Assembly (NCBI RefSeq): GCF_009299835.1
Contig: NZ_VKCZ01000004.1
Location: 232,385-296,384, forward strand
Direction: 5' to 3'
Source of the DNA: Microlunatus speluncae
GTDB lineage: Bacteria; Actinomycetota; Actinomycetes; Propionibacteriales; Propionibacteriaceae
DNA: 64,000 nt
Positions 26,008 through 63,918 of the stretch are shown here, piece by piece; positions within the stretch are counted from its first letter, which is position 1, and every line of letters begins with the position of its first letter. The notes beneath the pieces were generated by a model that was given only the letters and a program-made list of their open reading frames with translations, ran no database searches and was not told the DNA's origin. The translations under genes were made by a program, and so were the position numbers.

Positions 26008-26366
26008 GTGCGTTTCTCTACCTGTGTCGACTTCCGAACCGTGTTCGGCCTGCCCCGGGCGTGGTGCGTTTCTCTACCTGTGCGGACTTTCGTTCCGCGA
26101 ACGGACTGCCCGGGTGATGGTGCGTTTCTCTACCTAGGTGGACTTTTGTGCCGTGTTCGGGCTGCTGGGCGTCCATTTCTCTACCTGTGTCGACTTTCGT
26201 ACCGTGATCGGGCTGCCCGGGTGGTGGTGCGTTTCTCTACCTAGGTGGACTTTCGTTCCGTGATCGGGCTGCTCGCGTGGTGGTGCGTTTTGTCTACCTG
26301 GGTGGACTTTTTGCGCCGTGTTCGGGCTGCTGGGCGTCCGTTTCTCTACCTGTGTCGACTTTCGAT
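26008..26366 (-). repeat. Seven-unit tandem repeat array (51-56 bp units)
   Basis: Seven units start near 26008, 26064, 26120, 26171, 26227, 26283 and 26336 (the last is partial). Each begins GTGCGTTTCTCTACCTG or close, followed by GTCGAC/GTGGAC-TTTCG and a TTCGGGCTGC segment. On the minus strand the core is CGAAAGTCGACACAGGTAGAG. The array at 63.7 kb has a related core. From 26134 to 26366 the array also encodes the carboxyl end of the minus-strand gene. Confidence 0.85.
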
Positions 26367-28247: not shown

Positions 28248-28281
28248 GCGGCAAGACTCTCAGGTCGCGCCCCCCACCATG

Positions 28282-28347
28282 CCGCCGACCCGTCACATCC
28301 GCGCCGACACGCCGCAGAATCGGCCGCGGATGTGACGGGTCGGCGGG
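28282..28347. repeat. SHPRRHAAES-type palindromic repeat, copy A
   Basis: 22-bp perfect arms, CCGCCGACCCGTCACATCCGCG (28282-28303; first half shown is enough to find it) and 28325-28346, enclose a 21-nt loop that can itself pair CCGA/TCGG. It lies between the pyrE start and the anti-sigma-like gene stop, where it could terminate the latter. Copies B (32803) and C (49542) share most of the arms and loop. Confidence 0.8.
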
Positions 28348-28357
28348 TTTGGGGTGG

Positions 28358-29134
28358 TCAGGGGAAGGTGAGGGATTCGGCGAGGGCGATGGCGCGGTCC
28401 TGGTTGAAGGATCCTTCTAGGCGTACGGTCACCGGGCGACCGGGGCCGGCCGGGTAGGCCTCGTAGGCCAGCGTCGGGCCGGAGAGCCGAGCCTCGTCGG
28501 TGTGCTCGACGCCGTCGGGATCGACGTAGCTGATCGTGTGCGGGTCGGGCAGCCAGACGGCCAGGTTGCCGTCGACCTCGACCCGGATCAGCCGATCCCA
28601 GTTGCGCTTGACGAACATGATCAAACTGCCGTCGAACTGGCTCAACAGCACCGGCCCGGCAGCGGTAGCGAACTCCAGCTCGACCAGCCGCCGGTCCGCC
28701 GACACCGCCACCCGGGTGGGCGGTCCGAGATCCGTCGGCAGGCCGATCGGGAAGTCGATCATGGTCCGGGCCTGGTCGACTGTCGCCACCTCGATCATCA
28801 CCGGTCCGCCCGGCGAGACCGGCCGGACGGTGCCGCCCGGGGCCGGCGCGGACTGGAACACGATGCCGCCGACCCGGAGCCATTCGATCACCGCAGCACG
28901 CACGGGGGAGGCGAGCAGCAGCCCGGCGATCAAGGCGGCGATGATCACCGCGACCAGCCGCCGCCGCGCCTTCGCGTCGAGCACCAGCCGGCGCAGGAAC
29001 CGCCGCGCCGGATGGGGACGCCGGACCGGCAGTCGGGCCAGCACCCGCATCGCCAGGTCGTCGGGCACCGGATCGACGGTCAGGGTCCGGCCCAGGGCGC
29101 GCAGCTCGGCCTCGAGTTCATGATCATCAGTCAT
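28358..29134 (-). CDS. Probable membrane anti-sigma factor
   Basis: 258 residues. A hydrophilic, charged amino domain of about 55 residues (ELEAELRALGRTL, DLAMRVLARLP) is followed by one membrane helix (LVAVIIAALIAGLLLASPV). An extracytoplasmic beta-rich domain of about 170 residues contains DFPIGLPTDLGPPTRV and QFDGSLIMFVKRNWDR. The gene overlaps the ECF sigma gene by 8 bp, the usual arrangement for a sigma/anti-sigma pair. The sequence does not show a zinc-binding HxxxCxxC motif, so it would not be a ZAS-type protein. Role inferred from topology and context. Confidence 0.7.
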   Translation of the reverse strand: MTDDHELEAELRALGRTLTVDPVPDDLAMRVLARLPVRRPHPARRFLRRLVLDAKARRRLVAVIIAALIAGLLLASPVRAAVIEWLRVGGIVFQSAPAPGGTVRPVSPGGPVMIEVATVDQARTMIDFPIGLPTDLGPPTRVAVSADRRLVELEFATAAGPVLLSQFDGSLIMFVKRNWDRLIRVEVDGNLAVWLPDPHTISYVDPDGVEHTDEARLSGPTLAYEAYPAGPGRPVTVRLEGSFNQDRAIALAESLTFP

Positions 29135-31691: not shown

Positions 31692-32801
31692 ATGGCACAG
31701 AAGCGCACCGGTCCGGTCGGCGTCGGCATCATCGGCGCGGGTGTCATCAGCGGCACCTATCTGGACAATCTGAAGAGTTTCCCCGACGTCGAGGTGCTGG
31801 CCGTCGCCGACATCCTGACCGACAAGGCGAAGGCCAAGGCGGAGGAGAAGGGCATCGCCGCCGCCGGCGACAACTCGGTCGTCCTCGATCATCCTGACGT
31901 CGAGCTGGTGATCAACCTGACCACCCCGGACGCGCACGCCGAGGTGGCGCAGTCGGCGGTCGCGGCCGGCAAACACGTCTGGAACGAGAAGCCGCTGACC
32001 CTCGACCGGTCCTCCGGCCAGGCCCTGCTGAAGGCGGCCGAGGAGAAGGGTGTGCGGGTCGGTTGCGCGCCGGACACGTTCCTCGGGGCGGGCCTGCAGG
32101 CGACCTTCAAGGCACTCCAGGACGGAGTGATCGGTACGCCGTTGAGCGGCCTGATCCTGTTCCAGAGCCCGGGCCCGGAGTCCTGGCACCCGAACCCGGC
32201 CTTCCTGTTCCAGGAGGGGGCGGGCCCGCTGTTCGACATCGGCCCCTACTACCTGACCGCGTCGGTGCAGTCGTTCGGCCCGGCCGAGTCGGTCGCCGCG
32301 ATCGGCTCCAAAGCCAAGGCCAAGCGCGTGATCGGGTCCGGTCCGTTGGCCGGCCAGGAGTTCGACGTCACCGTGCCGAGCCAGACCGCCGGTCTGATCC
32401 GGTTCGAGGGCGGACAGTCGCTGACCGCGATCTTCAGCTTCGACTCGCCGCAGCCGCGGACGCTGCTGGAGATCACCGGCACCGAGGCCACCCTGCTGGT
32501 CCCGGATCCGAACACCTTCCACGGCGACATCCAGATCAGGAAGACCGGCTCCGACGACTGGGAGACGATCGGCACGACGACCGAGAGGTCCAGCCGCGGC
32601 ACCGGTGCCCTCGACCTGGCCCGAGCCATCCGCGAGGACCGCCCGCACCGCGCCCAGGGCGCCCTGGCCTACCACGTCCTGGACATCATGGTCTCGATGG
32701 CCGAGTCCGGCGAGCAGGGCGAGTTCGTCAAGGTGGACAGCACCGTAGAACCCGCCGCCCTCCTCCCCGAGGACTGGGACCCCAAGGCGAAGACCCTCTA
32801 A
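31692..32801 (+). CDS. Gfo/Idh/MocA-family oxidoreductase
   Basis: 369 residues. The NAD(P)-binding motif VGIIGAGVISGTYLDNLKSFPDVEVLAVAD is at about 9-38, and the family catalytic EKP is in VWNEKPLTLDRSSG near 98. The carboxy-terminal dimerisation domain has DIGPYYLTASVQSFGP near 183. It probably oxidises a sugar or cyclitol, with the isomerase gene directly upstream. A palindromic repeat starts 2 bp after the stop and could end the transcript. Confidence 0.88.
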   Translation: MAQKRTGPVGVGIIGAGVISGTYLDNLKSFPDVEVLAVADILTDKAKAKAEEKGIAAAGDNSVVLDHPDVELVINLTTPDAHAEVAQSAVAAGKHVWNEKPLTLDRSSGQALLKAAEEKGVRVGCAPDTFLGAGLQATFKALQDGVIGTPLSGLILFQSPGPESWHPNPAFLFQEGAGPLFDIGPYYLTASVQSFGPAESVAAIGSKAKAKRVIGSGPLAGQEFDVTVPSQTAGLIRFEGGQSLTAIFSFDSPQPRTLLEITGTEATLLVPDPNTFHGDIQIRKTGSDDWETIGTTTERSSRGTGALDLARAIREDRPHRAQGALAYHVLDIMVSMAESGEQGEFVKVDSTVEPAALLPEDWDPKAKTL

Positions 32802-32802
32802 A

Positions 32803-32870
32803 CCCGCCGAGCCGTCACATCCGCGGCCGTTTGTGCGGCGTGTTGCAGCGGATGTGACGGCTCGATCGGC
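32803..32870. repeat. SHPRRHAAES-type palindromic repeat, copy B (inverted)
   Basis: CGAGCCGTCACATCCGC (32808-32824) pairs exactly with 32848-32864. Read on the minus strand it aligns with copies A and C through the arms and the loop element ACACGCCGCA. It immediately follows the oxidoreductase stop. Confidence 0.78.
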
Positions 32871-40749: not shown

Positions 40750-40860
40750 ACCGCCAGTGTCGCCCGCCCCGCTCTCCGCCACCACCCACCCTGGTCCCCC
40801 GCGAGCCCCGATTCGCCGCCCTCGCTGAATCCACCGCCCTCGCTGAAGCCACCGCCCTCG

Positions 40861-41269
40861 TCTTTGCCCCCTTTGCGCGTGCTTCGCGGCATCTGTTGTG
40901 GGGGCGAAGGGCGAGGAGGTGGGGCGAAGGCGGCTTGGCGGCTCGTGGGCCGGCGCACGCCACCGCGCATTCCGTCCCCCGCCGCCGCATCCAGGTTTCC
41001 CGCGAGCGCCGAATCGGTCGTCCTCCGGTCGCATCGCCTTCGCCCCCGTTGCTCGTGCTTCGCGGCATCTGTTGCGGGGGCGGAGGGCGAGGAGGTGGGG
41101 CGAAGGCGGCTTGGCCGGCTTGACTGCCCGGTCCGGCCCGGCCTCTACGCGCCGTGGTGTTCCGCGAGTGCCGTGCCGCGTGGCCTGGGCCCGGCGTCCT
41201 TCGCCCCCGTTACTCGTGCTTCGCGGCATCTGTAGCGGGCGCGAAGCGCGACTAGCGGGGGCGAAGGAC
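40861..41269. repeat. Three copies of a CTTCGCCCC palindromic repeat, upstream cluster
   Basis: Copies of about 70 bp lie near 40861-40930, 41037-41107 and 41196-41269. The pattern is CTTCGCCCCCGTTxCTCGTG, CTTCGCGGCATCTGT, a GGGGGCGAAGGGCGAGGAGG part and a GGGGCGAAGG end, so the ends are self-complementary. In the third copy GTCCTTCGCCCCCG pairs exactly with 41256-41269. The cluster fills the 665-bp gene-free gap 40750-41414. Confidence 0.82.
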
Positions 41270-41414
41270 GGCTCAGCGGGCTTGGGGAGTGTCCCGGTCG
41301 CGGGGGCGTCCGCGACCGGGGTCGGTCGTCCACAGGCAGCGCCGGTCGAATTCGGTTGTCCACAGATCTTTTGAAGTCGGCGCGGGCCGGGTGTGGAGGA
41401 TGTGCGGTGGGCCT

Positions 41415-42335
41415 ATGAAGAAGATCGAACTGACGCGAGAACTGGTGGCTCGGGGTTTCGGCTACGACGAGGTCGCCCGGTTGGCACGGCGCGGAGAACT
41501 GGTCCGGGTGCGGCGCGGGGCGTACGGCCGGCCGGAAGCCTCTCTGGATGACCGGGGTCAGTACCTGAGGTTGATCCGGGCGACCGTCGCACAATGCAGT
41601 ACGACGACCGTGCTGAGCCACCAATCCGCCGCAGCCGTGCACGGATTGCCGCTCTGGCTGGATGAGATCAGCCGGGTGCACCTGACCCGATCGGCCGCCG
41701 GTGGTGGAAAGGTGCGGCATTACGTACATCTCCATCCGGCAGCCCTCGACGACTCGGACATCGTGGTGATCGACGGACTGCTCGTGACGAGCCTCGCCCG
41801 GACCGTGGTCGACCTCGGCCGTGCTGTCCGACTGGTCCGCTCGGTGCCGATCGGCGACGCCGCCCTGTCCCGCGGGCTGGCGCCCGAGGCACTGTCGGAC
41901 GTGCTGCACCGGTCCGCCGGCTGGCCGGGAATCGCCTCGGCCCGGCGCGCGGTCGGCCTACTGAATCCGCTGAGCCGAAGTGTCGGTGAGTCGGTCAGCC
42001 GGGTGGTGATGGTCGACCTCGAGGTGCCGCCACCGGTCCTTCAGTTCGAGGTGTTGAACGAGCGCGACGAGGAGGTCGCGTGTGTGGACTTCTGCTGGCC
42101 GGCCCAACGCACGGTCGGCGAGTTCGACGGGAAGATCAAGTACGGCCGACTGCTGAAGCCCGGGCAATCGGTGTCGGACGTGCTGTTCGCGGAGAAACAA
42201 CGCGAGGACGCCATCCGCGACCTCGGCTGGCAGGTCGTCCGCTGGGTCTGGGACGACCTGCGCCGCCCCGACGCACTCGCCGATCGCCTCACCCGTGCCT
42301 TCGCCCGGTCCGCCCGGACCTGGCGCTCCGGATGA
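41415..42335 (+). CDS. AbiEi-like antitoxin-type protein with DUF559 endonuclease-like domain
   Basis: 306 residues. The amino third (ELVARGFGYDEVARLARRGELVRVRRGAYG) is the AbiEi-type winged helix, and the middle (LSHQSAAAVHGLPLW, TSLARTVVDLGR) is the AbiEi_4 domain. The carboxyl end (CVDFCWPAQRTVGEFDGKIKYG, REDAIRDLGWQVVRWVWDDL) resembles DUF559/Vsr-like nucleases, including E-F-D-G-K. Single copies of such genes are common in actinobacteria and no AbiEii toxin is adjacent. It is flanked on both sides by clusters of one repeat family. Possible start also at GTG 41406. Confidence 0.75.
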   Translation: MKKIELTRELVARGFGYDEVARLARRGELVRVRRGAYGRPEASLDDRGQYLRLIRATVAQCSTTTVLSHQSAAAVHGLPLWLDEISRVHLTRSAAGGGKVRHYVHLHPAALDDSDIVVIDGLLVTSLARTVVDLGRAVRLVRSVPIGDAALSRGLAPEALSDVLHRSAGWPGIASARRAVGLLNPLSRSVGESVSRVVMVDLEVPPPVLQFEVLNERDEEVACVDFCWPAQRTVGEFDGKIKYGRLLKPGQSVSDVLFAEKQREDAIRDLGWQVVRWVWDDLRRPDALADRLTRAFARSARTWRSG

Positions 42336-42400
42336 CCCCACCGACCCCGCTCCTCCGGACTTTGCGCCGCTTCGCCTCACCTTCTGGACGTTCGTGTCCA

Positions 42401-42828
42401 CTTCGCCTCACCTTCCATGGCTTCGCGCCAGCTACAGCTGGGGCGGAGGGCGAGGACGTGGGGCGGAGGTGAATGGCGAGTCGGCGCGGACAGCCGCGGG
42501 TGCATGAGCGCTGGGCGCGCCAGCTACGAGGGAGCGGCGACCTCGGCTCCCGGCTTCGCCCACCTTCGGGGCTTCGAGCGGCTTCGCCCACCTTCGGGGC
42601 TTCGAGCGGCTTCGCCCAACTTCGGGGCCTTCGCCCCACCTTCTGTGGCTTCGCACCTGTTGTAGGTGGGGCGGAGGGCGAGGACGTGGGGCGGAGCGGG
42701 TAGTGGTGGGCGGAGGGCGGCTGCATCGGGGCGCGCCGGGTAGCGGTCGCGCGTCACGGCTTCGCCCCACCTACTGGTCCTTCGCGGCAGCTGTAGGTGA
42801 GGCGAAGGGCGAGGAAGTGGGGCGAAGG
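42401..42828. repeat. Three copies of the CTTCGCC palindromic repeat, downstream cluster
   Basis: Copies near 42401-42470, 42629-42696 and 42759-42828 match the upstream cluster: CTTCGCC(T/C)CACCTT, CTTCGCGxCAGCTGTAG, GGGGCGGAGGGCGAGGA and GTGGGGCGAAGG. They fill most of the 539-bp gene-free gap 42336-42874. Confidence 0.8.
42551..42630. repeat. Three tandem 28-bp repeats
   Basis: The unit CGGCTTCGCCCACCTTCGGG plus GCTTCGAG occurs at 42551-42578 and 42579-42606, with a slightly altered third unit to 42630. It probably arose by local duplication of part of a CTTCGCC repeat. Confidence 0.8.
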
Positions 42829-42874
42829 CGCGGCGCGGGCCTGGGTGGGACGGCTGGGGTTAGACGGCTGGGGG

Positions 42875-49189: not shown

Positions 49190-50113
49190 ATGCGACGTGG
49201 CAATGGCTGCAGCGAAGAGATTCAGCGACACTCCGACCGACCGCCGCGCGAGACTGGGCCGGTGATCGAGGACGCGCATCGGCAGGCAGACCACCTCGTC
49301 CGGTTCGATTGGGGTCCCACGGGTGCGGCCGCGATCAGCGCCGACGCGGCCTACGCGGTCGTGGTCGACGTGTTGTCGTTCACCACCACACTGACCGTCG
49401 CCGTCGAGCGCGGGATGACCGTCTTTCCCTACCGGTGGCGAGACGACGGAGCCGCCGACTACGCCCGGGCCCGGGACGCCGTGCTGGCCGTCGGCCGCTT
49501 CGAGATCCTGGCCGTCCCCGCCTCCGACCCCGACCAGCCGGCCGAGTCGTCACATCCGCGTCGACACGCCGCAGAATCGGCCGCGGATGTGCCGGGTCGG
49601 CGGGGGTTGGGGGTGAGTCTTTCGCCGGCGGCGATGGGGCGGGTCGTGGGGGTGGAGCGGATCGTGTTGCCGTCGCCGAACGGGTCGACGATCGCGTACG
49701 GGCTGCAGGGTTCCGGGGCCCGGGTGGTCGGCGGGTGCCTGCGCAACGCGGCGGCGGTGGCGGGCTGGCTGGCGCCGCGGCTGGCGTCCGGTGGCACTCT
49801 GGCGGTGGTTGCGGCCGGGGAGCGCTGGCCGGACGGGTCGCTGCGGCCGGCGGCCGAGGACCTCTGGGGCGCCGGGGCGGTGCTGGCCGCCTGTGCGGCG
49901 GCCGGGCTGACCGGATTCAGTCCGGAGGCCGACGCGGCGGCGCAGTCCTTCCGGGCCGTCGTGGACCGGCTGCCGGCGGCGTTGTCCGGGTGCGCGAGCG
50001 GGCGGGAGTTGATCGCGGCCGGGTTCGGGGCCGACGTCGCGGTGGCCGCGGCACACGAGGTCTCGACGGTGGTCCCGGTGCTGGACGGCGAGGCGTTCGT
50101 ACCGGCGACCTGA
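49190..50113 (+). CDS. ComB-like 2-phosphosulfolactate phosphatase with inserted repeat
   Basis: 307 residues. The family core is present: VVVDVLSFTTTLTVAVERG near 60, LPSPNGSTIAYGL near 155, CLRNAAAVAGWL, and VAAGERWPDGSLRPAAEDLWGAGAVL near 205. ComB removes phosphate from 2-phosphosulfolactate in coenzyme M synthesis; in bacteria the substrate is usually unknown. Residues about 118-138 (SSHPRRHAAESAADVPGRR) come from an in-frame palindromic repeat placed before VSLSPA. AGGAGG supports ATG 49190, while a GTG at 49262 would fit the usual family length better. Confidence 0.8.
   Translation: MRRGNGCSEEIQRHSDRPPRETGPVIEDAHRQADHLVRFDWGPTGAAAISADAAYAVVVDVLSFTTTLTVAVERGMTVFPYRWRDDGAADYARARDAVLAVGRFEILAVPASDPDQPAESSHPRRHAAESAADVPGRRGLGVSLSPAAMGRVVGVERIVLPSPNGSTIAYGLQGSGARVVGGCLRNAAAVAGWLAPRLASGGTLAVVAAGERWPDGSLRPAAEDLWGAGAVLAACAAAGLTGFSPEADAAAQSFRAVVDRLPAALSGCASGRELIAAGFGADVAVAAAHEVSTVVPVLDGEAFVPAT
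49542..49604. repeat. SHPRRHAAES-type palindromic repeat, copy C, inside the comB-like gene
   Basis: CACATCCGCG (49551-49560) pairs with CGCGGATGTG (about 49582-49591), and outer parts pair imperfectly. About 55 of 60 bases match copy A (28282-28347). It is in frame, so the host gene stays open and reads through it. Confidence 0.82.
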
Positions 50114-50171: not shown

Positions 50172-51344
50172 GTGATCCCGCGGACCTACCTCATCGTCTT
50201 CGCCGGGTTGACGGTCGCCTTCGCGGTGCTGGCGATCTTGATCTTCCCGGACCTGGACCGGGTGACGGTGCTGGTCGGCCTGCTGGTGCAGCTCACCGGG
50301 GTGCTCGTCGTCGCGTTCCAGCGGCCGGTGATCGGCGCGGTGACGGTGCTGATCATGACGATGGTGCTGTCCTGGGCACCGACCGGCTGGGATCTCCTGT
50401 ACGACCACCAGTTGATCATCTGGATCCCGGTCGCCGCCTCGCTGGTCAGCGGCCGGGTGATCGTCGAGTCGCGCAGCCGGCTCGAGTTGATCATGGGTCT
50501 GGCGCCGCTGGTGGGCTGGTGCGCGGTCACCATCGGCAACGTCGGGGTGACCCCGATCAGTGTCCTGGGCAGTGTCTCGCCGGTGCTCGCCGGCATCTGC
50601 ATCGCCCTGGTGATCCGGCTCCGCGAGGCACGCAAGGACCGGCTGGCCTCGCTGGAGCAGGCCAGGATCGCGGCCGACCGGGAACAGTTGCTGGCCGACC
50701 TGCACGACCTGATCACCCACCGGATCACCCGGGTGGTGCTGAAGTCGCGGCAGCTGGCGGGCGGCACCGACCAGCCGCCGCTGCGGGACGGGCTGGGTGA
50801 GATCGAACGGACCGCGACCGAGACCCTGACCGCCCTGCGGGACTACCTGACGGCGGCCCGGCCGGTCGAGCCGTCCGGCGCCGATCAGGGCGCCCGGCCG
50901 GTGTCCGATCTCCGCACGGAACTGGCCGAGATCGTCGCCGCGGAACGGGAGCTGGACCGCGCGGTCGAGCTGGCCGAGCCGTCCGGCGACGATCGGATCA
51001 TGATCAACTCAGCGGTCCACGGTTGCCTGGTCCGGGCCGTCCGGGAGGCGCTGACCAACGCCGCCAAGCATGCCGTCGGCGCGCCGGTGGAGATCGAGCT
51101 CCGGGCCCGGGAGGTGGTCCGCCTGTCGGTGATCAACGGACCGGCCGTCGAGGGACCGGACGCCGGTCTGCACCGGTCCGGCTCCGGCGCCGGGCTGCGC
51201 GGCCTGGCCAGTCGCTGCCGACTGCTCGGCGGTAGCCTGACCGCCGAACCCGACGGCCGGGGTGGATTCGCGGTCCGGGTGGAACTGCCGGTCACCGTCG
51301 AACGGGCCCCGGCCTGGATCGGCGCGACGGAGGCGACGGCATGA
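50172..51344 (+). CDS. Sensor histidine kinase, NarL-type (HisKA_3)
   Basis: 390 residues. Four or five amino-terminal membrane helices (TYLIVFAGLTVAFAVLAILIF, VLVGLLVQLTGVLVVAFQRPV, VTVLIMTMVLSW and others) precede a coiled coil with REARKDRLASLEQARIAADREQ. The dimerisation/phosphoacceptor region is LLADLHDLITHRITRVVLKSR (His about 178). The HATPase is short: REALTNAAKHAVGAPVEIEL near 290 and GSGAGLRGLASRCRLLGGSL near 345. It is coupled with the next gene by ATGA. Signal unknown. GTG 50172 is preferred over 50139. Confidence 0.88.
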   Translation: MIPRTYLIVFAGLTVAFAVLAILIFPDLDRVTVLVGLLVQLTGVLVVAFQRPVIGAVTVLIMTMVLSWAPTGWDLLYDHQLIIWIPVAASLVSGRVIVESRSRLELIMGLAPLVGWCAVTIGNVGVTPISVLGSVSPVLAGICIALVIRLREARKDRLASLEQARIAADREQLLADLHDLITHRITRVVLKSRQLAGGTDQPPLRDGLGEIERTATETLTALRDYLTAARPVEPSGADQGARPVSDLRTELAEIVAAERELDRAVELAEPSGDDRIMINSAVHGCLVRAVREALTNAAKHAVGAPVEIELRAREVVRLSVINGPAVEGPDAGLHRSGSGAGLRGLASRCRLLGGSLTAEPDGRGGFAVRVELPVTVERAPAWIGATEATA

Positions 51345-51973
51345 CCACGATCACGGTGATCATCGCCGACGACGACCCGTACGTCCGCGACTATCTCGGC
51401 GACGCCCTGGCTCAGGCCGAGGGGATCGAGGTCGCCGGGGTCGCCGCCGACGGGGCCGAGGCGGTCGACCTGGCGATCCGGACCCAGCCCGACGTGGTGC
51501 TGATGGACATCCGGATGCCCGGCGTCGACGGCATCGCCGCGACCGTCGAGTTGATCAAGCTCGACCCGGCCCCGGCCGTGATCTTGATGACCGCGCTGGA
51601 CACCGACGAGGCCCTGCTCGGCGGACTGGCCGCCGGCGCCCGCGGCTACACGATCAAGACCGCACCGGTGGCCGCGATCGTCGAGTCACTCCGCGCCGCC
51701 GCGACCGGCACCGACGTGCTGTCCCCCGAGGCGACCCGCCGACTCGTCGCGCTGGCCAGCGCCCCGCGGCGGGCGGCCTCGCCCCGGCTGACCGAGCTCG
51801 GCGACCGGGAACGCGAGGTGCTCCGGCTGATCGGCGAGGGCGCCTCCAACGCCGCCATCGCCCGTACCCTCTATCTGGCCGAGAGCACCGTCAAGGGCCA
51901 CGTCTCCCGCCTGATGACGAAGCTCGACTGCGACAACCGCACCCAACTCGCCGTCCTCGCCCAACACCTCTGA
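51341..51973 (+). CDS. NarL/FixJ-type response regulator
   Basis: 210 residues. The receiver domain spans 1-120, with the acidic pair in IADDDPYVRDYL, the phosphoacceptor Asp in DVVLMDIRMPGVDG (about 54) and the Lys in YTIKTAP near 105. The LuxR-type helix-turn-helix is near 145-205 (LGDREREVLRLIGEGASNAAIARTLYLAESTVKGHVSRLMTKL). It should be phosphorylated by the kinase encoded just upstream and bind DNA. Targets unknown. Confidence 0.95.
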   Translation: MTTITVIIADDDPYVRDYLGDALAQAEGIEVAGVAADGAEAVDLAIRTQPDVVLMDIRMPGVDGIAATVELIKLDPAPAVILMTALDTDEALLGGLAAGARGYTIKTAPVAAIVESLRAAATGTDVLSPEATRRLVALASAPRRAASPRLTELGDREREVLRLIGEGASNAAIARTLYLAESTVKGHVSRLMTKLDCDNRTQLAVLAQHL

Positions 51974-52136: not shown

Positions 52137-53018
52137 TCAGAGGTGGAGCCAGCCGAAGGCGATGTTCCAGTGGTGGCCGGCGGTGAGGTGGTCGAGGACG
52201 GCTCGTTCCAGGCGGCTGGTCGGGGTGAGCGCCGCCAGGTCGGTCGGGTCGGCGGCCTCGAAGACCCAGCGGACGATCTCGCGGTCACCGGGGGTGGCGT
52301 CGGCGGTGATCATGAACCGGCGGCCGAAGTCGACGATGTTGGACGTGACCGGCAGGTGATCGGCGAGTTGGGGGTCGATCAGCCAGGACCGGCAGTGGCC
52401 GATGATCAGGTCCAGGCCGGCGTACTCGGCGGGGAAGTGCCGCCGGAAGAAGGCGGCGGTCCGGGCCAGTGAGGCGTCGCATTCACCCGGGTCGAGCCGG
52501 CCGCCGATCGGGATGTGCACACTCAGGCCCGGCTGCTCGGCCGGCCGCCTACTGGCCGCGCCGGCCACGGGTCCGACCGGCTCCCGCTTGTAGTCCAGCC
52601 GGCCGAGGCGGAAGATCAGCCCGCGCCAGACGTCGATCACCCAGGCCGGACCGTCCAGCCCACCGATGCCGTAGATCCGGCGGTGCCGTTCCAGGTTGAG
52701 GCTGAGCGCGTTCAGTGAGTGGGCCGAGATCGCGTCCGGCACACCATGATCACGATGATCACGACGGACCTCCTCGATCACCGACAGGCAGGCGTACGCG
52801 ACGAAGTAGCGGCCGGCGGCGCCCCACTCGGCGGGAGGTTCGATCAACTTGGGGCGGGTTCGGTCGATGCCGATCGAGGCCGCGATCGCCTCACCCGCAG
52901 CGACGATCTCGCGCCGGATCCCGGGATCGTCGGGGAACGAATCGGCCAGCTCGGCCGCTTCGACGGCCGGCACCCCGAGCCAGTCGAGCGATGCCGTGAC
53001 CCAGTCGGGTGTCTCCAT
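52137..53018 (-). CDS. GNAT-like acyltransferase domain protein (DUF5596-like)
   Basis: 293 residues. The carboxy-terminal half has LSVHIPIGGRLDPGECDASLARTAAFFRRHFP and IIGHCRSWLIDPQLADHLP, characteristic of the GNAT-like carboxy-terminal domain proteins of actinobacteria. The helical amino half (ASLDWLGVPAVEAAELADSFP) resembles DUF5596. No signal peptide; presumably cytoplasmic. Substrate unknown. It stands alone between two hairpins that resemble each other, so it may form its own unit. Confidence 0.72.
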   Translation of the reverse strand: METPDWVTASLDWLGVPAVEAAELADSFPDDPGIRREIVAAGEAIAASIGIDRTRPKLIEPPAEWGAAGRYFVAYACLSVIEEVRRDHRDHGVPDAISAHSLNALSLNLERHRRIYGIGGLDGPAWVIDVWRGLIFRLGRLDYKREPVGPVAGAASRRPAEQPGLSVHIPIGGRLDPGECDASLARTAAFFRRHFPAEYAGLDLIIGHCRSWLIDPQLADHLPVTSNIVDFGRRFMITADATPGDREIVRWVFEAADPTDLAALTPTSRLERAVLDHLTAGHHWNIAFGWLHL

Positions 53019-63621: not shown

Positions 63622-63699
63622 CCGATCAGCCTAGGAACCACCCCCGACAGTCCCCGGCTCCGAGCCCTCTCCTGAGCCCGAGCCTCCATGCCAGGGGTT

Positions 63700-63881
63700 C
63701 CGGAAGTCGACCTTGGTCGAGAAATGCGCGCCTGCGGGTCGGGTTGGGTGTGCGGAAGTCGACCGTGGTGGAGAAATGCGCGCCTGCGGGCTGGTTGGGT
63801 GTGCGGAAGTCGACCGTGGTGGAGAAATGCGCGCCTGCGGGCTGGTTGGGTGTGCGGAAGTCGACCGTGGTGGAGAAATGA
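63700..63881 (+). repeat. Four-unit 51-bp tandem array related to the 26-kb array
   Basis: Units begin near 63701, 63753, 63804 and 63855 (the last partial). Each is CGGAAGTCGACCGTGGTGG, then AGAAATGCGCGCCTGCGGG and CTGGTTGGGTGTG. The core CGGAAGTCGAC-xx-GGTxGAGAAA matches the minus strand of the 26-kb units (CGAAAGTCGACACAGGTAGAGAAA). Because 51 is a multiple of 3, the frame stays open and repeats KSTVVEKCAPAG. Confidence 0.85.
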
Positions 63882-63918
63882 ACCGCCCCGGGTTTTCCGG
63901 GTACTTCGGTTTGTGTCT

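Follow-up and report, generated by a model that had tools for sequence, protein, structure and literature searches.

A REP-like hairpin family of Microlunatus with an in-frame copy in a ComB-like gene

The ComB-like gene and its palindromic insert

The window, that is, the whole 64,000-nucleotide stretch of DNA analysed here, is part of the 6.79-Mb genome of Microlunatus speluncae (21 contigs) and contains a gene of the 2-phosphosulfolactate phosphatase family within which lies a copy of a palindromic element; two further copies are located behind other genes (Table 1). The gene start at 49262 agrees with the database gene model P0001 (283 aa), and relatives align from about there; an alternative in-frame ATG at 49190 opens a frame of 307 aa, which matches the Pfam model PF04029 with an E-value of 3.3e-17 (62.8 bits, against a cut-off of 26.4). 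The scores with the NCBIfam equivalog models PRK14100 and TIGR00298 are far under the respective cut-offs, and we therefore refer to the gene as ComB-like and do not claim ComB activity for its product.

Table 1. Coordinates of the ComB-like gene, its insert and the copies of the palindromic element in the window
Feature	Position	Strand	Remarks
ComB-like gene (2-phosphosulfolactate phosphatase family, PF04029)	49262-50113	+	283 aa from GTG 49262
Inserted segment	~49520-49612	+	edges approximate; aligned to the insert-free M. parietis gene, net +87 bp (29 codons)
Palindromic element core in the ComB-like gene	49538-49604	+	sense to gene; covariance model R1, 81.1 bits
Left stem arm, ComB copy	49541-49559	+	19-pair stem
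Central part with conserved CGACACGCCGC motif, ComB copy	49560-49582	+	conserved stretch separating the arms
Right stem arm, ComB copy	49583-49601	+	19-pair stem
G-rich third-position stretch right of the element	49628-49729	+	skew +0.52 (34 codons), against -0.42 in the 34 codons to the left
Copy A, canonical place	28281-28347	+	antisense, ~10 bp past the stop of gene 28358-29134 (-); covariance model
Second window copy, canonical place	32803-32869	-	antisense, directly past the stop of gene 31692-32801 (+); covariance model

The initial annotation had described a palindromic repeat within this gene, akin to the intergenic copy A, and a reading frame kept across it. Both descriptions are borne out: a 41-nt core with one free position matches the window twice without mismatches (28294-28334 and 49551-49591), where none is expected by chance (100 shuffles), and the frame runs without interruption from 49262 to 50113. 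In the genome, the core has 9 matches when up to 3 mismatches are tolerated, and the reversed-pattern control has none. The covariance model R1, built from 30 genomic copies including the one in the ComB-like gene, finds three strong copies in the window (Table 1), and a scan of the window against Rfam returned no family at gathering score.

The weaker outer arm that had been noted for the ComB copy in comparison with copy A is reflected in RNA folding, which gives -45.5 kcal/mol (z -3.3) for the former and -63.0 kcal/mol (z -8.8) for the latter, so the outer stem of the ComB copy is indeed the poorer of the two. The proposal that these mismatches reflect protein constraint or age was not supported. 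The constraint idea was rejected because identical variants occur in intergenic copies: the left-arm variant GAGTCGTC of the ComB copy is found too in the copies at C16:69742, C20:304137 and C11:282417, and the right-arm variant GTGCCGGGTC in those at C11:446543 and C11:450071.

Alignment with the insert-free gene of Microlunatus parietis showed that the insert spans the element core and its G-rich right flank, with no clear flanking (target-site) duplication at the ComB site. The net gain exceeds the "about 20 residues" estimated initially because flanking bases came along with the element. Of 7,565 relatives scored in a protein search, 120 were listed, the query itself among them. Between E81 and S121, our protein has 39 residues; of the 119 others in the list, P0002 has 41 and the remaining 118 have 2-17. 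Among GTDB relatives with both flanking residues aligned, 37 of 38 have 6-14 residues at this site, and a Nocardioides protein (L097) has 31, which form an unrelated long linker. Insert-free alleles, whose existence among relatives had been anticipated, are the rule. The initial annotation had named the occurrence of these residues in orthologues of many genera as a refutation, and this was not observed: P0002 alone among the 119 shares the inserted residues. Its presence there would be the one point in favour of the segment being an ancestral part of the protein that merely resembles the repeat, a reading already refuted by the insert-free relatives; moreover, the DNA matches a genome-wide repeat.

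The P0002 protein, 79% identical and encoded on a contig of 885,577 bp, carries its insert (SHPPRHAAKTPADVTGRR) in the same place and frame. Because 16 of 18 residues of this peptide equal the sense-frame reading of four copies from our genome, we identify it as the element. Compared with our own ComB insert, 13 of 18 residues are equal (counted by eye), so that a single ancestral insertion is not proven and the site may have undergone gene conversion or received the element twice. If the element had entered this position separately in each species, or if other copies had overwritten it repeatedly through gene conversion, this would explain why the P0002 insert is closer to other copies of our genome than to our ComB insert, and why the ComB copy and copy A have the same loop, CAGAATCGG, although they are 21 kb apart. 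Against this scenario, which we consider improbable, the flanks that do not belong to the element are similar (DPDQPAE and DPGAEP), and the insert has the same orientation and reading frame in both genomes.

In an AlphaFold2 model of the protein (24 alignment rows; mean pLDDT 87.3), residues 92-114, inside the insert, are the sole segment below 50, so that the insert is predicted to be a disordered loop in a confident fold and the 29 added codons are, for this reason, likely tolerated. A decaying pseudogene, in which an insertion would be of no consequence, is in keeping with the low PRK14100 and TIGR00298 scores, but the frame is open, codon usage is gene-like, residues invariant among the 24 aligned sequences are kept, the predicted fold is confident and the insert is in frame in a second genome as well, all of which makes decay very unlikely.

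Other repeats were also observed in the window. An 82-nt repeat rich in CTTCGCC and GGGGCGAAGG occurs six times at 40858-42837; four 51-nt tandem units (GGAAGTCGACC...GAGAAATG), 75-96% alike to the reference unit, are located at 63685-63889; and direct repeats that overlap one another at 26008-26364 (56 and 120 nt, with TTTCTCTACCT...GTCGACTTTCG) resemble the reverse complement of the tandem array at 63685.

A dispersed repeat family with a conserved stem

Tolerating up to 3 mismatches, we found 34 matches to a 39-nt core pattern in the M. speluncae genome and none in the 19 other genomes of the genus. A search of 197 genomes with a relaxed pattern, built around the right half of the element, which is conserved, yielded 121 matches in M. 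speluncae, 137 in M. parietis (G009), 67 in G012 (some perfect palindromes being counted twice), 74 in G017, 55 in G013 and 31 in G004, and no match in the other 14 genomes of the genus; a single match was found in each of 2 of the 177 other genomes of the family, and the reversed control of the pattern gave one match each in 4 of the 197 genomes. These pattern counts are preferred to the rows of the covariance search (143, 147, 141, 81 and 52, among at most 150 scored candidates) because the latter count many palindromes on both strands. Searches of plasmid, phage and viral-contig collections with the consensus or pattern returned no match, nor did an exact-pattern search for our own sub-family in a contig collection that may lack this genome and its near relatives.

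The 19-pair stem is conserved. In 51 copies from four genomes (22 from G009, G012 and G017, and 29 of the 30 from M. speluncae, L019 being omitted due to a 1-base deletion), 90.7% of the cells of the stem are paired, and 49 cells are changed on both sides, compared to 15.3 in shuffles, a value reached by none of 500 shuffles. The inner arms vary between species, yet tend to remain paired. An RNAalifold consensus of the 30 M. speluncae copies only contains little covariation (1 of 15 pairs).

We rejected the assumption that every species has the left arm. In G013 and G004, it is absent from 18 of the 20 copies read (L247-L266), which retain the right half alone, of ~42 bp (CGACACGCCG...CTCGGCGG); an outer run that pairs was found in two of the 20 (L253 and L264), and overall 178 of 380 possible pairs of this run are formed. 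Given that the copies in these two genomes are mostly without a left arm, the full palindrome may have originated by head-to-head doubling of an older half.

Some individual arrangements deserve mention. At C6:122215 and elsewhere, the left arm of one sub-family (ACTTGTGC) is joined to the right arm of another (GCGGATGT), which looks as if halves had been exchanged. Among the M. speluncae copies, the right arm is more conserved than the left. At C15:332711-332846, two oppositely oriented copies lie 2 bp apart between convergent genes.

Stop codons, translated copies and composition of gene ends

Gene calls around 74 elements of M. speluncae and 56 of M. parietis, at loci fetched for their matches, were made with a home-made codon-usage gene finder. 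In M. speluncae, the stop codon of an inbound gene is at the right end only for 38 elements and at the left end only for 3 (binomial p 1e-8), and in M. parietis the respective numbers are 37 and 1 (binomial p 3e-10); therefore, the usual (canonical) order is gene, stop, antisense element. For 47 of the 74 elements, the right-end stop falls within -60 to 25 bp. Furthermore, 23 of the 48 stops at canonical elements are TAA, compared to 8 of 180 in other places (Fisher p 4e-12), 21 of these 23 being within 5 bp, and the right flank of the element, read in the direction of the gene, often is CTAAAC.

Canonical positions turn over between species. A comparison of M. speluncae loci, chosen for having elements, with 1.6 Mb of M. 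parietis gave 79 reciprocal best pairs of orthologues; the canonical element is present in M. speluncae only in 8 of these pairs, in M. parietis only in 3 and in both species in 3. The M. speluncae-only set includes copy A and the second window copy, and the proteins encoded next to them end at the same residue in both species, which fits an element arriving after an existing stop.

Fully internal in-frame copies are rare. The initial annotation had suggested a genome search for in-frame copies in other genes; six of the 69 M. speluncae copies examined (of about 120) encode a C-terminal tail ending at a stop in the element, five of them antisense and one sense. Three of the 69 were called internal, and the one convincing case is that in the ComB-like gene. 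The copy at C16:193567 (L038) was dropped because the gene model in the database, of 217 aa, is confined to sequence downstream of the element, which is thus likely 5' of the gene; the one at C11:282417 (L190) was dropped because its frame has no relative but itself, and an opposite-strand gene conserved in M. parietis ends at this element. The sole internal call among the 56 M. parietis elements (L144) reaches just 23 bp beyond the element. One of the five antisense tails, of 18 residues, terminates a protein encoded at C11:850782-851918, which looks like MurG, and the M. parietis orthologue has a different C-terminus. Four of the six reading frames of the element are open in 47-54 of 65 copies, the frame used in the ComB-like gene in 51 of 65; hence, the latter is not special.

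Genes followed by a canonical element have C-rich, G-poor ends. The skew of the last 100 nt averages -0.307 in 46 such genes (-0.300 in 39 genes when the 7 whose stop is inside the element are left out), compared with -0.137 in 16 genes with a reversed element and -0.049 in 113 genes without one (-0.065 for convergent neighbours, -0.009 for tandem neighbours at <30 bp and -0.097 for tandem neighbours at >=60 bp, the last comprising 25 genes). In the 8 orthologue pairs with the element in M. speluncae only, the mean is -0.275 against 0.011 in M. parietis and the M. speluncae gene is the more negative in all 8, two of which end inside the element, so that their last 100 nt include element bases. 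In the 3 pairs with the element in M. parietis only, the values are -0.218 with and -0.185 without it, and the gene with the element is the more C-skewed in one of the 3. Across these 11 informative pairs, the difference (with minus without) is -0.22 (Wilcoxon p 0.005). Around family copies in general, the skew is +0.27 in the first 100 nt to the right and -0.09 to the left, and fades within ~400 bp.

The third codon positions of the ComB-like gene switch in the same direction as the skew around other family copies (Table 1). In an alignment-based comparison that kept 79 of 80 loci, none of the 79 GTDB relatives has a switch as large (the largest being 0.76, against 0.93); the right-side G-richness is matched by none of the 79, and the left-side C-richness is equalled or exceeded by 6. 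The values for the gene of M. parietis are -0.25 on the left and +0.24 on the right. Since the G-rich stretch mirrors canonical gene ends, the element could be thought to have a role inside the ComB-like gene, for instance, as a one-way stop for antisense transcription. However, the next downstream genes (50172-51344 and 51341-51973) are on the same strand and the first opposite-strand stop is at 52137, which renders such a role quite unlikely; likewise, because no opposite-strand gene ends at this place, a pure termination role does not explain the footprint. The C-rich skew also fits a mutational footprint lacking any function. It is conceivable, albeit doubtful in our view, that the element itself reshapes its neighbours over ~300 bp, enriching C on its left and G on its right, rewriting synonymous codons and building a Rho-loading tract at gene ends.

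Several of these observations would be expected if the palindromes were purely selfish DNA that, similar to the Rickettsia palindromic elements (RPEs), is spread by some enzyme, survives where it is least harmful, behind stop codons and in loops of proteins, and has no job: species-specific versions at high copy number, the mostly open reading frames, the C-terminal tails and the turnover of positions among orthologues. But landing at random leaves the strict orientation towards stop codons (38:3 and 37:1) unexplained, as it does the compensatory changes in the stem and the C-rich gene ends that accompany the element, and we find this account, on the whole, rather unlikely.

Putative function and comparison with known systems

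Taken together, we consider it reasonably probable that the element is a REP-like hairpin of Microlunatus, present in about 120 copies, with a role at gene ends, and that the copy in the ComB-like gene is in frame and adds 29 codons predicted to form a disordered and likely tolerated loop. At gene ends, the element would act as a 3' hairpin and supply the UAA stop. No U-tract is evident after the stem, the sequence that follows being the complement of the left flank, which is rich in C and has no consensus run of A; therefore, this is not a classic intrinsic terminator. Features associated with Rho-linked 3' ends are present, namely, C-rich, G-poor gene ends and a Rho_N domain, which is encoded in all 8 genomes searched. 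Judging from these sequence features, the family likely functions as a Rho-linked terminator or end protector: behind a C-rich tract, the element would mark or protect transcript ends made by Rho, with transcripts being ended by Rho or by the U-less hairpin and then protected at the stem. Behaviour of this kind is described for other hairpins, at Streptomyces clavuligerus 3' ends (PMC8269248) and in Escherichia coli REPs near stop codons (PMC12306157). In the ComB-like gene, into which the element would have entered by copying or insertion in the common ancestor of the two carrier genomes, the ribosome would pass through it, masking both the hairpin and Rho loading in the sense direction; as translation runs through it, the hairpin would be harmless there.

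In-frame insertions of palindromes are best known from Rickettsia and from proteobacterial REPs. With a stop-oriented family for which no RAYT was found, which supplies UAA and leaves a footprint in base composition, the actinobacteria would gain a gene-end repeat, and the ComB insert represents a natural test of a termination-type hairpin inside a translated gene. Additionally, since a given gene may have the element in one of the two species and lack it in the other, comparing them can show whether the C-rich tract came before the hairpin or after it.

RPEs, given as 105-146 or ~150 bp in size, are palindromic repeats inserted in frame in unrelated genes with the protein kept, and nearly half of them lie in genes (PMC2229807, PMC10969869). 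The likeness to RPEs drawn in the initial annotation applies, on the basis of these published descriptions, to the in-frame behaviour of the ComB insert; the Microlunatus family differs in being actinobacterial and mainly an antisense gene-end element, with internal copies being rare (1 of 69 convincing).

The GTAG and CGTC REPs are high-copy palindromes often located within 20 bp of gene 3' ends, some of which supply stop codons and some of which lie inside genes, adding 20-30 residues; the main text of this report names no actinobacteria (PMC3733652). In the broad sense, the Microlunatus family (121 pattern matches, mainly intergenic near 3' ends) fits a REP-like description. It differs from both classes in its length of ~66 bp, its 19-pair stem and its near-fixed orientation to the stop codon. 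Unlike in GTAG REPs, no conserved GTAG is found among 65 oriented copies, the consensus of which ends in CCGCCGAC and GTCGGCGG. GTAG REPs are mobilised by RAYT, whereas the Y1 (HUH) transposase (PF01797) was found in none of the 7 genomes searched, the control search having given matches in 5 of 14 named genomes, Escherichia coli among them. In CGTC REPs, an unpaired CGTC tag is followed by a stem of 8-9 bp and a loop of 4-5 bases, whereas the CGTC of the Microlunatus element is inside the stem; its first base pair varies (CG 39, GC 7, GU 3 and other 2 in 51 copies) and the motif is not conserved across species. REPs of E. coli that lie no more than 15 nt from a stop codon are near enough to act on translation (PMC12306157), and E. 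coli, in contrast to the 7 genomes searched here, has a Y1 transposase match. MITEs have target-site duplications and a cognate transposase; at the ComB site, no clear duplication was seen, and the transposase search covered the Y1 type.

The I-shaped (U-less) and Rho-linked 3' hairpins of high-GC actinobacteria, as described for S. clavuligerus, likewise have a strong stem behind the gene and lack a U-tract (PMC8269248); in that description, they constitute a class of 3' ends, whereas the Microlunatus hairpins are one dispersed repeat family. Among the papers listed in literature searches on palindromic and repetitive elements of Microlunatus, none was seen to report this hairpin family. In-frame insertions of REPs and RPEs are already known, whereas the Microlunatus family and its orientation rule with respect to stop codons appear to be new.
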